From positions 62,001-126,000 of the forward strand of contig NZ_ANAC01000005.1 of assembly GCF_000341225.1 (NCBI RefSeq): a DNA stretch of 64,000 nucleotides, read 5' to 3'. Origin of the DNA: Nocardiopsis alba DSM 43377 (lineage in GTDB: Bacteria; Actinomycetota; Actinomycetes; Streptosporangiales; Streptosporangiaceae). Of this stretch, positions 13,197 through 18,218 are shown piece after piece (within the stretch, counting starts at the first letter, position 1; each line of letters begins with the position of its first letter). The translations under genes and the position numbers were made by a program. The notes beneath the pieces are model-generated. The model ran no database searches. It saw only the letters and a list, made by a program, of their open reading frames with translations, and was not told the origin of the DNA.

Positions 13197-14492
13197 TCAG
13201 CGCACCACGACGAAGTCCTCCGGATCACGGGGCGGACGGTCCTTGGGCGGTTCGGCCGCGTACCCCACGGCCACGGCCCCCATCGGACGCCACTCCTCCG
13301 GGACCTCCAGCACCTCGCGGACCACGTCCGCACAGAACATCGTGGAGGAGATCCAGGCCGACCCGAGCCCCTCCATGGCCAGGCCCACCAGCAGGTTCTG
13401 TACCCCGGCGCCCATGGCGACCAGGAACATGGACCGCTCGGCGTCGGCACGACGCTCGTCCGGATACGGGTGGGCCCCGTCGGCGACCAGGAAGGGCACC
13501 ACCAGATAGGGGGCCCGACGCAGGACGTCGCCCCTCCGGGTCCGTCGTGCGATCTGTTCCTCGGTGAAACCGTCCCCGCGCAGGTCCTCCACCCAGGCCT
13601 GGAGCATCGCGTCCAACAGACGTTCGCGGGTCTCGGGCGACTCCACCAGGACGAACCGCCACGGCGTGGTGTGATGCGGGGCCGGCGCGGTGATCGCCGA
13701 GGCGACCGCGCGACGTACCAGGGCCGGGTCGACCGGACGGTCGGAGAAGGAGCGTACGGTCCGTCGGGCCGGGACCACGTCACGCGACCCGTAACGGAAC
13801 ATGTCCTCGTCGGCGGGCCGCACGAGCTCGGCCGCCCCCGGACCGTCCTCCTCGGTCACCAGATCGCCCAGGCCGGAGATCACGGCCACCGGTATCGCGG
13901 AGGTCTTGCCCTTGACCAGCTCACCGGCGCCCGCCACTTCGTCGGCGATCGCGTTGATCGTCGCCTCCATGAGGTTGCCGTGGGCGTCGGTCGTGCCGCG
14001 CAGGTCCTGGAGCGCGCGCAGCCCGGCCGCCCCGATGGCCACGTCCGTCTGCCCCTCTCGCCAGGGGCGTCCGAAGGTGTCGGAGATCACCACGCCCACG
14101 CGCACGCCCAGACGGTCGAGGATTCCGGCCCGCAGGGTCCGCGCGGAGACGTCGGAGTCCTCGGGCAACAGCAGAACGGTGCCCGGCTCGACGTTGGAGG
14201 CGTCCACTCCCGCCGCCGCCATCACCAACCCCTGCCGGGTCTGCACGATCCGTGTGCGCCCCATGCGGGCGACGACCCGCTCGGTCTCGGCGTCGATGGC
14301 CTCCTCGCGGTCCATCCGGACCGAACGTCCCTCGGCCTTGGAGACGATCTTGGAGGTGACGACGAGCACGTCCCCGTCGACGAGGGGCCGGCCGGAACCG
14401 GCCACGGCCTCGGCCACCAGTTCCGCGAGATCGTCGCCCGAACGGACCTCCGGGATGCCGAGAAGACCGCGTATCCGCAGTTCGACGCTCAT
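13197..14492 (-). CDS. fbiB: Coenzyme F420:L-glutamate ligase with nitroreductase-like domain (FbiB)
   Basis: A 431-residue two-domain protein. Residues 1 to about 245 are the CofE-type gamma-glutamyl ligase ([20 protein letters not shown] at the start, then [14 protein letters not shown]), which adds glutamates to F420-0. Residues about 250-431 are an FMN-binding nitroreductase-like domain ([25 protein letters not shown]). In actinobacteria that domain reduces dehydro-F420-0. The fusion is typical of actinobacterial FbiB, against a single-domain CofE in archaea. ATG 14492 overlaps the stop of fbiA as ATGA, so the two genes are co-transcribed and coupled. Confidence 0.97.
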
Positions 14493-15472
14493 CGGCCCCC
14501 GTCCCCGCGCAGCTCCAGCGCCAGGTCCAGAGCGGCACGGGCGATCGCCTCGGTGGATTCGGGGTCGCTCATGTACAGCGGACGGGAACGGACCTCGATG
14601 CCCTCGACCTCGGTGCCGGCGTCCGCCTCGTCGACCAGCCAACCGTCCAGTAGATCCGAGCCCAGGTGTGCGGCGACGGCGCCCGCGGAGGTCTCCACAC
14701 CGATCGCGGTCAGGCAGGCGTCGGCCATCCCGCGGACGGGCGCGCCGCCGATGATGGGAGAGACGCCCACCACGGTCTTGTCGACCAGGGCGTCGCGGAT
14801 CCCGGGAACGTTGAGGATGGAGCCCACGCTCACCACCGGGTTGGACGGGGGGAGGAGGACGAGGTCGGCCTCCTTCACGGCCTTGATCACGCCGGGGGCG
14901 GGGCGGGAGTCCTCCGCGCCCACGCTGATGATCCGCTCGGCGGGCAGAGCGGCGCGGTGCTCGATCCACCATTCCTGGAAGTGGACGGCCCGTCGTCCCC
15001 GCTCGTCCTCGATGACCACGTGCGTCTCGACCTGGTCGTCGGTCATCGGGAGGAGGCGCACGCCGGGGCGCCAGCGGTCGCACAGCGCCTCGGTGATCGC
15101 GGAGAGGGGGTAGCCCGCGGCGATCATCTGGGCACGTACGATATGCGTGGCGGTGTCCCGATCGCCCAGACCGAACCAGGTGGGTTTCATCCCGTAGGCG
15201 GCGAGCTCCTCCTTGACCGTGAAGGTCTCGTCGGCCCTGCCCCAGCCCTGCTCCTCGTTGATCCCACCCCCCAGGGTGTACATCACGGTGTCCAGGTCGG
15301 GGCAGATCCGGAGACCGAAGAGGGTGATGTCGTCACCGGTGTTGCCGATGACGGTGATCTGGTGGTCTGTGGCCTGGTCGGGGCCGGTCGACGCGTCCGT
15401 TCCGAGTGCGGCCTTGAGGCCGCGGAGGAAACGCGCGCCGCCGATACCGCCGGCCGGTACGACTATCCGCAT
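14489..15472 (-). CDS. fbiA: 2-phospho-L-lactate/phosphoenolpyruvate FO transferase (FbiA, CofD family)
   Basis: A 327-residue enzyme that transfers a phospho-lactyl or enolpyruvyl group from the GDP-activated donor to FO, giving (dehydro-)F420-0. The N-terminus [19 protein letters not shown] carries the glycine-rich loop of the CofD family, followed by [10 protein letters not shown] and the [13 protein letters not shown] segment. ATG 15472 is chosen because it starts the family-conserved sequence; upstream in-frame codons are not conserved-looking. It is the first gene of the fbiA-fbiB operon and divergent from the repeat-protein gene at 15720 across a 247-base gap. The third enzyme, fbiC, is at 7.5 kb; a CofC/FbiD guanylyltransferase is not in this window. 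Confidence 0.97.
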
Positions 15473-15719
15473 GCGCCCAAGTCTGGCAGGCTGGTGTCGT
15501 GTATGGGTCGTCTGCCCCGTGGTGGGCGCGATCCTTCGTGTCCGATCCGGTGCCGAAGGTCGGTGAACCTTCGGGCCTCGGCCGCCATCCCACCCCATCG
15601 GCTCCGCGTTCGGTGTCCCCAGTGTCCGCCCGTGCCCGGCCGAGCCGATTCACCCGACAGTCCGACGATATGCCAAGCTTCCTCCGACGCGACGGCGAAG
15701 CAGCAGAGGGGAACCTCTC

Positions 15720-17690
15720 TTGAACAACGAAACACTGGAACGCCTACGCCTCCCCGGGGCCTGGGTCCTGCTGGGAGCGGCGGGCGTCACGATGCTCTCG
15801 GGCCTCATCAGGCTCATCATCGAGGCGAGCGAGATCGGCGGAAGCTTCGCCCGGTCCATGAACTGGGCCGGAGACTCCTTCTATGGTCTCACGGTCACGC
15901 TGCTTCTGGTAGCCGCGGTGGTCCTGGTCTTCACCAGTGAGCGGGCCCGTCAGTCCGCCTTCCCCGTGGTCCTGACCACGATGATCCTGGCCGGTGTCGG
16001 TCTGCTCTTCTGCCTGATCGGGCTGATCAGCGGGTTCATCGAGGTCGACAACGGCGGTCTCGCCTTCGCCGGCTTCCTGTCCAGGGCGGCTCAGGGCGCG
16101 GTGCTCGGCTTCTTCGGGTTCTACCTGATCAAGATCTTCAACGACCCGACCGTGGTTCCGCGGGCGCAGCCGCAGCAGGCGCAGTACGGGCAGCAGTTCC
16201 CGTCCCCGACGGGCACGCAGCAGCCGTTCGCCCAGCCCGGCTACCCGGCCCAGGCAGACGCCTCCCAGCAGGTCTACGGTCAGCAGTACGGACAGGACGC
16301 CCAGCAGGCCGTCTACGGCCAGGAGTCCGTGTACGGCCAGGACGCCGCCGCTCAGCAGCAGGCCTATGGCCAGGACGCCGCTCAGCAGGCGTACGGGACC
16401 GACGCCCAGCAGCAGGCCTACGGCCAGGAGGCGGCCTACGGTCAGGACGCCGCGGCTCAGCAGCAGGCGTACGGTACCGACGCCCAGCAGGGCTACGGTC
16501 AGCAGTACGGCCAGGAGGCCGCTCAGCAGCAGTACGGTACGGGCGCTCAGCAGGCCTATGGTCAGGACGCCGCGGCTCAGCAGCAGGCCTACGGCACCGG
16601 AGCCCAGCAGAGCTACGGAAGCGGCGCTCAGCAGGCGTACGGTACCGACGCCCAGCAGGGCTACGGTCAGCAGTACGGCCAGGAGGCCGCTCAGCAGCAG
16701 TACGGTACGGGCGCTCAGCAGGCCTATAGTCAGGACGCCGCGGCTCAGCCGCAGGCGTACGGTACCGGGGCTCAGCAGGCCTATGGTCAGCAGTACGGCC
16801 AGGAGGCCGCTCAGCAGCAGTACGGTACGGGCGCTCAGCAGGCCTATAGTCAGGACGCCGCGGCTCAGCCGCAGGCGTACGGTACCGGGGCTCAGCAGGC
16901 CTATGGTCAGGACGCCGCGGCTCAGCAGCAGGCGTACGGTACCGACGCCCAGCAGGGCTACGGTCAGCAGTACGGCCAGGAGGCCGCTCAGCAGCAGTAC
17001 GGTACGGGCGCTCAGCAGGCCTATGGTCAGGACGCCGCGGCTCAGCAGCAGGCGTACGGTACCGACGCCCAGCAGGGCTACGGTCAGCAGTACGGCCAGG
17101 AGGCCGCTCAGCAGCAGTACGGTACGGGCGCTCAGCAGGCCTATGGTCAGGACGCCGCGGCTCAGCAGCAGGCGTACGGTACCGGGGCTCAGCAGGCCTA
17201 TGGTCAGCAGTACGGCACCGGTGCCCAGCAGGCCGCCTACGGTCAGGACTCCGCTCAGCAGCAGGCCTACGGCGCCGACGCCTACGGTCAGCAGTACACG
17301 GCCGATGCCTCCCAGCAGGCCTATGGTCAGCAGTACGGCCAGGGGGCCGCTCAGCAGAACGAGTACGGTCAGGCCTACGACCCCTCCCAGTACGCCCCGC
17401 AGCAGCCCTACGACGCTCAGGGCGGCGCGGACCAGCAGGCGCAGGAAGCCATCCAGAACGGGTGGTACCAGGACCAGTCGCAGCAGCAGGCCGGTCAGGA
17501 GAACCCCGCCGCCCCAGGAGTTGAACCATTCTTTAACTCCAATGAGAACACTGGTGGGCAGACGTCGGACCAGAGTGGTGGGACGTACGGAAGCCAGTAC
17601 GGTTCCGGCGCCGGCTACGGCTCTGACCAGCAGGGACAGGGCGGGTCCGACAATCAGCAGAACTGGTACGGCAACGACGGCCGACGCTGA
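15720..17690 (+). CDS. Membrane protein with long Gln/Tyr/Gly/Ala tandem-repeat tail
   Basis: A 656-residue protein of unknown function. Residues 1 to about 130 hold four hydrophobic helices (for example LPGAWVLLGAAGVTMLSG, LTVTLLLVAAVVLVF, VVLTTMILAGVGLLF). From about residue 140 to the end the sequence is low-complexity, rich in Gln, Tyr, Gly and Ala, and built on units such as AYGQDAAAQQQ, AYGTDAQQGYGQQYG and QEAAQQQYGTGAQQ. These combine into a 40-residue higher-order repeat. The last 60 residues lose the repeat and become Gly/Ser/Asn-rich. Start is TTG 15720 with AGAGGGGAA upstream. The tail should be disordered and cytoplasmic or surface-exposed, prion-like in composition. It lies between fbiA and whiB2. 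No homologue is recognised beyond general Gln-rich tails. Confidence 0.8.
   Translation: MNNETLERLRLPGAWVLLGAAGVTMLSGLIRLIIEASEIGGSFARSMNWAGDSFYGLTVTLLLVAAVVLVFTSERARQSAFPVVLTTMILAGVGLLFCLIGLISGFIEVDNGGLAFAGFLSRAAQGAVLGFFGFYLIKIFNDPTVVPRAQPQQAQYGQQFPSPTGTQQPFAQPGYPAQADASQQVYGQQYGQDAQQAVYGQESVYGQDAAAQQQAYGQDAAQQAYGTDAQQQAYGQEAAYGQDAAAQQQAYGTDAQQGYGQQYGQEAAQQQYGTGAQQAYGQDAAAQQQAYGTGAQQSYGSGAQQAYGTDAQQGYGQQYGQEAAQQQYGTGAQQAYSQDAAAQPQAYGTGAQQAYGQQYGQEAAQQQYGTGAQQAYSQDAAAQPQAYGTGAQQAYGQDAAAQQQAYGTDAQQGYGQQYGQEAAQQQYGTGAQQAYGQDAAAQQQAYGTDAQQGYGQQYGQEAAQQQYGTGAQQAYGQDAAAQQQAYGTGAQQAYGQQYGTGAQQAAYGQDSAQQQAYGADAYGQQYTADASQQAYGQQYGQGAAQQNEYGQAYDPSQYAPQQPYDAQGGADQQAQEAIQNGWYQDQSQQQAGQENPAAPGVEPFFNSNENTGGQTSDQSGGTYGSQYGSGAGYGSDQQGQGGSDNQQNWYGNDGRR
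16261..17360 (+). repeat. In-frame tandem repeats, 120-bp higher-order unit
   Basis: The DNA for the protein tail repeats with short units of 24-36 bases nested in a 120-base unit. Bases 16921-17040 and 17041-17160 are identical over all 120 positions, and 16681-16740 equals 16801-16860. Identity at synonymous positions shows recent duplication, so copy number is probably variable between strains. Confidence 0.95.
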
Positions 17691-17853: not shown

Positions 17854-17930
17854 TCCAATGTGGGATTTCCACCTGACCTGGGGGATGAAAAGGGTCGGGG
17901 ACATCTATTGGGGGGCTACAGGAGGTGCGC

Positions 17931-18218
17931 ATGAGCGAGGTCATCCCGCTGGCGCACGGCTCGGATGAAGATCTGGGCTGGCAGGAACGTGCCCTGTGCG
18001 CGCAGACGGACCCGGAGGCGTTCTTCCCCGAGAAGGGCGGCTCGACCCGGGAGGCCAAGAAGGTCTGTCAGTCGTGCGAGGTACGGGCGGAGTGCCTGGA
18101 ATACGCGCTGGAGCATGACGAACGCTTCGGTATCTGGGGGGGACTCTCCGAACGCGAGCGCCGAAGGCTGAAGAAAGCCGCCGGGGGAGATTTCGATTTC
18201 CTGGCGGACATGCTCTAG
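17931..18218 (+). CDS. whiB: WhiB2-type iron-sulfur transcription factor
   Basis: A 95-residue WhiB-like protein. Four cysteines, C23, C46, C49 and C55, bind a [4Fe-4S] cluster. The turn FGIWGGLSERERRRLKKA (from 66) is the conserved GVWGG-like loop and basic DNA-contacting helix. The block LGWQERALCAQTDPEAFFPE and GGSTREAKKVC matches WhiB of Streptomyces/WhiB2 of mycobacteria very closely. It acts with the principal sigma factor, and in Streptomyces with WhiA, at division and sporulation genes. AGGAGG at 17919-17924 sets the start at ATG 17931, not the GTG at 17925. A hairpin with a T-run follows at 18235-18268. Unusually it ends with an extra acidic tail, GDFDFLADML. Confidence 0.96.
   Translation: MSEVIPLAHGSDEDLGWQERALCAQTDPEAFFPEKGGSTREAKKVCQSCEVRAECLEYALEHDERFGIWGGLSERERRRLKKAAGGDFDFLADML

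Follow-up and report, generated by a model that had tools for sequence, protein, structure and literature searches.

An uncharacterised four-helix membrane protein with a long Tyr/Gln-rich low-complexity tail, encoded between fbiA and whiB in Nocardiopsis alba and conserved in Streptosporangiales

The fbiA-whiB locus and its reading frame

The window, a stretch of 64,000 nucleotides from Nocardiopsis alba DSM 43377 that was analysed as a whole, contains at positions 15720-17690 of the plus strand an open reading frame of 656 amino acids, which starts with TTG and ends with TGA. An earlier note on this DNA had placed the frame between fbiA and whiB2, and fbiA and whiB are confirmed as its neighbours. 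The features of the locus are:

14489..15472, minus strand: fbiA, divergent neighbour (conserved synteny)
15669..15680, plus strand: upstream element TATGCCAAGCTT (family form TRTGCMAAGCTT), conserved across the order
15670..15723, plus strand: possible 17-codon leader ORF MPSFLRRDGEAAEGNLS, with a TGA stop that overlaps TTG of the gene (tentative)
15705..15718, plus strand: Shine-Dalgarno region within a small inverted repeat, AGAGG-GGAA-CCTCT (folding not better than that of shuffles)
15720..17690, plus strand: coding sequence of a tetraspan protein with a low-complexity tail (ORF call, pN/pS)
17925..18218, plus strand: whiB, co-directional neighbour (conserved synteny)

The antisense frame of 15720-17690 is also open and mirrors the sense composition, of which it is treated as a by-product. 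Translation of the sense frame is supported by comparison with nearby species. Here, pN/pS is 0.36 in the N-terminal membrane part, 0.33 in the last 105 amino acids and 0.28 in the repeat part, where the alignment of repeats pairs identical residues and biases the value low; the other two values are unbiased. A ratio of about 0.3 indicates that the frame is translated and under purifying selection. The gene was found in all same-genus relatives of the first search, and all of those with an intact start share the TTG codon and the sequence N(N/K)E(T/S)LERLR. This shared start, the pN/pS values and the presence of a tail in every relative at the locus (see below) argue that the ORF does not owe its existence to chance.

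The region upstream of the gene is also conserved in part. Of 116 distinct upstream regions, 98 carry the 12-base element TRTGCMAAGCTT at 28-50 bases before the start codon, a match being defined as at least 9 of 12 positions; 72 of the matches are perfect, and 0.5% of shuffles reach 10 positions. A 14-base form of the element occurs a single time in the N. alba genome, even if one mismatch is allowed. In the Nocardiopsis family, the element also opens a possible leader ORF of 17-20 codons. In 37 of the 45 element-bearing cases, the TGA of this ORF shares bases with the TTG start codon of the gene, an arrangement that would possibly permit translational coupling. The leader ORF is lost in several close relatives and its frame is not kept in other genera. 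Thus, the element more likely represents a gene-specific regulatory signal acting at the DNA or RNA level than a conserved peptide. An RNA hairpin over the Shine-Dalgarno region was considered and rejected, because its folding is no better than that of shuffled sequences (z -0.03 to -1.1), and no riboregulation is claimed. Scans for sigma-70-like promoters and for terminators yielded no match, and neither did an Rfam search over the gene and leader.

Distribution, membrane domain and topology

A profile of the membrane domain detected a single copy of the gene in each of 188 genomes out of 200 from Streptosporangiales; a broader profile recovered three genomes missed earlier (G043, G127 and G045). 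Carriers include Nocardiopsis, Streptomonospora, Thermobifida, Marinactinospora, Actinomadura, Thermomonospora and Actinoallomurus, among others. At nearly all loci examined the order is divergent fbiA, the gene, co-directional whiB and then a glycosyltransferase gene. In three genomes from a small Streptosporangiales family (G026-G028) the gene has been relocated beside PEPCK- and UppS-like genes, and these relocated copies have a tail of only 53-68 amino acids. Outside Streptosporangiales, matches were obtained in only five of the other genomes sampled from the class. One of these is marginal (G322, E 6e-4) and does not show the fbiA-whiB arrangement. In two genomes of another family (f33) the gene adjoins fbiA, in two of a further family (f23) it lies between fbiA and whiB, and a low-complexity tail is present in both families. 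The fbiA-whiB interval is occupied by a cupin/cysteine-dioxygenase-like gene at two loci of Streptomyces-like genomes (L239, 1049-1555; L240, 5532-6404) and contains fbiC, or little or nothing else, in several other families; no hidden version of the gene was seen in this interval in Streptomyces and other orders. The gene defines a conserved family, nearly universal and syntenic within one order, that lacks a characterisation in the databases and literature consulted.

The protein was described in the earlier note as four helices followed by a Gln/Tyr/Gly/Ala tail of about 500 residues. This architecture was recovered, with the predicted helices in residues 1-148 and a tail of 508 residues. 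The features of the N-terminal part are:

15720..16163, plus strand: membrane domain, residues 1-148 (AlphaFold2)
15726..15830, plus strand: helix 1, a cytoplasmic lead-in and membrane helix (AlphaFold2, hydropathy)
15888..15932, plus strand: membrane helix 2 (hydropathy, AlphaFold2)
15942..16043, plus strand: membrane helix 3 (hydropathy, AlphaFold2)
16053..16142, plus strand: membrane helix 4, followed by juxtamembrane KIFNDPTVVPR (hydropathy, AlphaFold2)

Hydropathy predicts four hydrophobic membrane helices in residues 1-148, and in an AlphaFold2 model built with 44 relatives residues 2-169 form an up-down bundle of four helices (mean pLDDT 86.5, pTM 0.78) with a short additional helix between helices 1 and 2. 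The N-terminal segment reads LERLRLPGAW, the family consensus being RLREPAAW. One same-genus genome carries the membrane domain in two frames that are split at residue 68/69 (G022:C75:202446-202888), which reflects either a frameshift or a sequencing error.

Loop charges were used to predict the orientation of the protein, on the basis of 107 distinct sequences for which four helices are predicted. In 104 of these, the N-terminus, loop 2 and the segment directly behind helix 4 together carry more Lys and Arg than loops 1 and 3 do; three sequences tie, none is reversed, and the mean difference is 3.6. This pattern fits the positive-inside rule with both protein ends in the cytoplasm, and the tail is thus probably located on the cytoplasmic side. 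A surface layer, one of the roles envisaged in the earlier note, is not borne out. Secreted proteins can bear low-complexity tyrosine-rich tails, and an extracytoplasmic tail could in principle form a wall-associated or surface layer; however, the loop charges, the even number of helices and the lack of a detectable fifth membrane helix in the N. alba tail make this reading improbable.

Composition and conservation of the tail

The tail accounts for most of the protein and comprises the following features:

16164..17687, plus strand: disordered Gln/Ala/Gly/Tyr-rich tail, 508 amino acids, net charge -37 (composition, pLDDT)
16433..17207, plus strand: tandem-repeat core, 2.6 nearly identical copies of a unit of about 297 bp matching at 92% (repeat search)
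17376..17402, plus strand: conserved motif YDPSQYAPQ (32/50 Nocardiopsis-family tails)
17427..17471, plus strand: conserved motif ADQQAQEAIQNGWYQ (41/50 Nocardiopsis-family tails)
17529..17549, plus strand: conserved motif FFNSNEN (28/50 Nocardiopsis-family tails)
17661..17687, plus strand: C-terminal NWYGNDGRR, with WY within the last 16 residues in 95/107 distinct relatives

Gln makes up 30% of the tail, Ala 20%, Gly 16% and Tyr 11%. In absolute numbers, it contains 57 Tyr, 39 Asp/Glu and two Arg/Lys; Cys and Lys are absent. Units of about 297 and 120 bp, nearly identical and arranged in tandem, form the middle of the tail and yield YGQQ and YGTGAQQA steps and a Tyr spacing of mostly 4, 8, 9 or 11 residues. 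No second protein resembling the tail was found in the N. alba genome, where the search matched only the gene's own antisense frame. Scoring for disorder and for prion-like composition had been proposed in the earlier note. In a single-sequence AlphaFold2 model, on which the disorder assignment is based, pLDDT stays at about 28-42 along the whole tail and no secondary structure is formed. The classical yeast-prion count criterion is at least 30 Gln plus Asn in 80 residues. With a maximum of 28 the N. alba tail just misses this value, the next-best frame in the window reaching 16; 82% of the Actinomadura-type and 16% of the Nocardiopsis-family tails attain it.

Comparison of tail length and composition among relatives revealed that the tail is kept in all 107 distinct complete relatives at the locus and that its composition is retained, while its length varies about six-fold, from 120 to 690 amino acids. 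Gln, Asn, Gly, Ser and Tyr make up a median of 60% of the tail, the net charge is always negative and not a single Cys occurs among 44,044 tail residues (all counted before removal of duplicates). The Nocardiopsis family has repeats of the Gln/Ala/Gly/Tyr type, Actinomadura has Gln/Gly/Pro/Tyr repeats and Streptosporangium-like genera have Pro/Ala/Gln/Gly repeats, these three groups being delimited by profile score with approximate edges. Several assemblies contain runs of N inside the tail (L011, L048, L065), probably due to repeats that are hard to assemble, and tail lengths from draft genomes may therefore be off. Repeats turn over rapidly between species with their composition maintained, and non-repetitive versions of the tail also occur. 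A neutral expansion of tandem DNA repeats in a tolerant frame, which would leave the tail without function, could account for the near-identical units and their fast turnover from species to species. It is highly improbable, however, in view of a tail that persists in all relatives within this old syntenic family, non-repetitive versions included, of the maintained composition and motifs, and of the low pN/pS.

Short motifs are embedded in this changing background. They include a EQAAQDAIQYGWYQ-like motif, present in 41 of the 50 tails of the Nocardiopsis family, EWT(R/K)xY, present in 35 of 45 Actinomadura-type tails, and DP(T/V)AIY, present in 10 of 12 Streptosporangium-like tails. The C-terminal WY is the one motif found across the tail groups, and its frequency in the last 16 residues far exceeds the 1.5 cases expected from shuffled tails. 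Each of the 50 Nocardiopsis-family tails spaces its aromatic residues more evenly than shuffled tails do (mean z -1.9; N. alba, z -3.9), which partly follows from tandem repetition. The even spacing is not a family-wide trait, because Actinomadura-type tails lack it (z -0.1).

Conservation within the tail is strongest in the short motifs and at the C-terminus, and the repeat core varies in length and order. These observations would suit a flexible tether, in which the tail is an entropic spacer that presents WY and a few short motifs to one partner at a distance from the membrane and need not associate with itself. The lack of even aromatic spacing in the Actinomadura type, whose tails are also shorter, points in the same direction, and the six-fold range in length is compatible with a simple spacer, too. 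A spacer alone, however, would not be expected to maintain about 10% Tyr, about 28% Gln/Asn and the absence of Cys over 120-690 amino acids. The tether is the main rival to the scaffold reading developed below, and we regard it as possible, though somewhat unlikely.

Comparison with known systems and possible function

Database searches offered little guidance. Pfam, NCBIfam and PHROGs gave nothing above cut-off for the full protein, the membrane domain or distant members, and DUF2510, whose GWYPDP motif occurs in actinobacterial membrane proteins, was rejected for lack of a Pfam match of the full protein at E ≤ 1. The tail had no match in the PDB at E ≤ 10, and a profile of the membrane domain had only weak matches there (best E 0.04, PsbX). 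Fold searches with Foldseek and VIA-align returned only generic helical bundles, among them designed proteins and SNARE and STAT bundles; all best Foldseek matches had E > 0.05. A literature search found no paper on this tailed tetraspan protein.

The closest functional parallel may come from animals. Synaptophysin is a four-helix vesicle protein with an acidic disordered tail of 90 residues, which contains ten repeats, nine of them led by Tyr (Y-G-P/Q-Q-G). This tail coacervates with basic synapsin via tyrosine pi-cation contacts, and replacement of the nine Tyr by Ser abolishes the coacervation (PMC8424992). Like synaptophysin, the N. alba protein combines four helices with an acidic disordered C-terminal tail, which the positive-inside rule, as the only indication of its side, places in the cytoplasm, and in both proteins Tyr heads Gly/Gln repeats (YGQQ and YGTGAQQA in N. 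alba). The N. alba tail differs in its five-fold greater length, its abundance of Ala and scarcity of Pro, and the WY motif at its end. No sequence similarity to the synaptophysin/synaptogyrin (MARVEL) family was detected by Pfam at E ≤ 1 for the N. alba protein, with distant members below cut-off, and synaptogyrin (8a6m) ranked only 42nd in the Foldseek search (E 1.4, TM 0.23). Thus, the protein may work like synaptophysin, but we do not assign it to that family, and nothing in these comparisons indicates kinship.

The earlier note had likened the tail to the phase-separating domains of eukaryotic RNA-binding proteins. The likeness holds for composition, as both are disordered and rich in Tyr, Gly and Gln and, in the Nocardiopsis family, have evenly spaced aromatic residues. 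It does not extend further, since the tail is acidic, almost free of Lys and Arg, poor in Ser and Asn, bound to the membrane and not accompanied by an RNA-binding domain; in these respects it is closer to synaptophysin. Predicted Gln-rich disordered regions also occur in bacterial prion-like families defined by composition, such as the Ssb and Rho tails. According to the main text of PMC6400439, these families occur for the most part sporadically, and few reach high coverage; that text does not mention Nocardiopsis, Thermobifida or Actinobacteria. The present family, by contrast, occurs almost universally throughout an order.

A scaffold or condensate, as the earlier note had suggested, is possible. 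We favour a membrane-anchored, multivalent, Tyr/Gln-rich cytoplasmic scaffold with a C-terminal docking motif, to which we assign a probability of about one half. In this scaffold, a four-helix anchor in the inner membrane would hold the long acidic, disordered tail, rich in Tyr, Gln and Gly, on the cytoplasmic side. Tyr residues at even intervals would act as many weak stickers on a flexible Gln/Gly/Ala spacer and most likely allow lateral clustering, coacervation with a basic (Arg/Lys-rich) cytoplasmic partner, or both. The short conserved motifs, chiefly the C-terminal WY, would dock a specific partner. The analysis shows a reading frame under selection, four helices, predicted disorder, conservation and synteny across the order, and the WY motif. 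The cytoplasmic side and the scaffold function are what we infer; a liquid condensate and any particular partner are speculative. The whiB neighbourhood may hint at a role in growth or division. A more ambitious proposal, which we consider doubtful, is that the protein is a bacterial membrane-tethered condensate organiser, present as an order-wide single copy linked to whiB, that would gather a basic partner from the cytoplasm at sites of growth or division by a synaptophysin/synapsin-like mechanism.

At one fixed locus, the tail varies naturally in its length, its type of repeat and its composition. This constitutes an unusually clean natural series, which is well suited for asking what a low-complexity tail does on a bacterial membrane protein. 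The family also allows one to ask whether Tyr-based clustering at membranes arose independently of animals.
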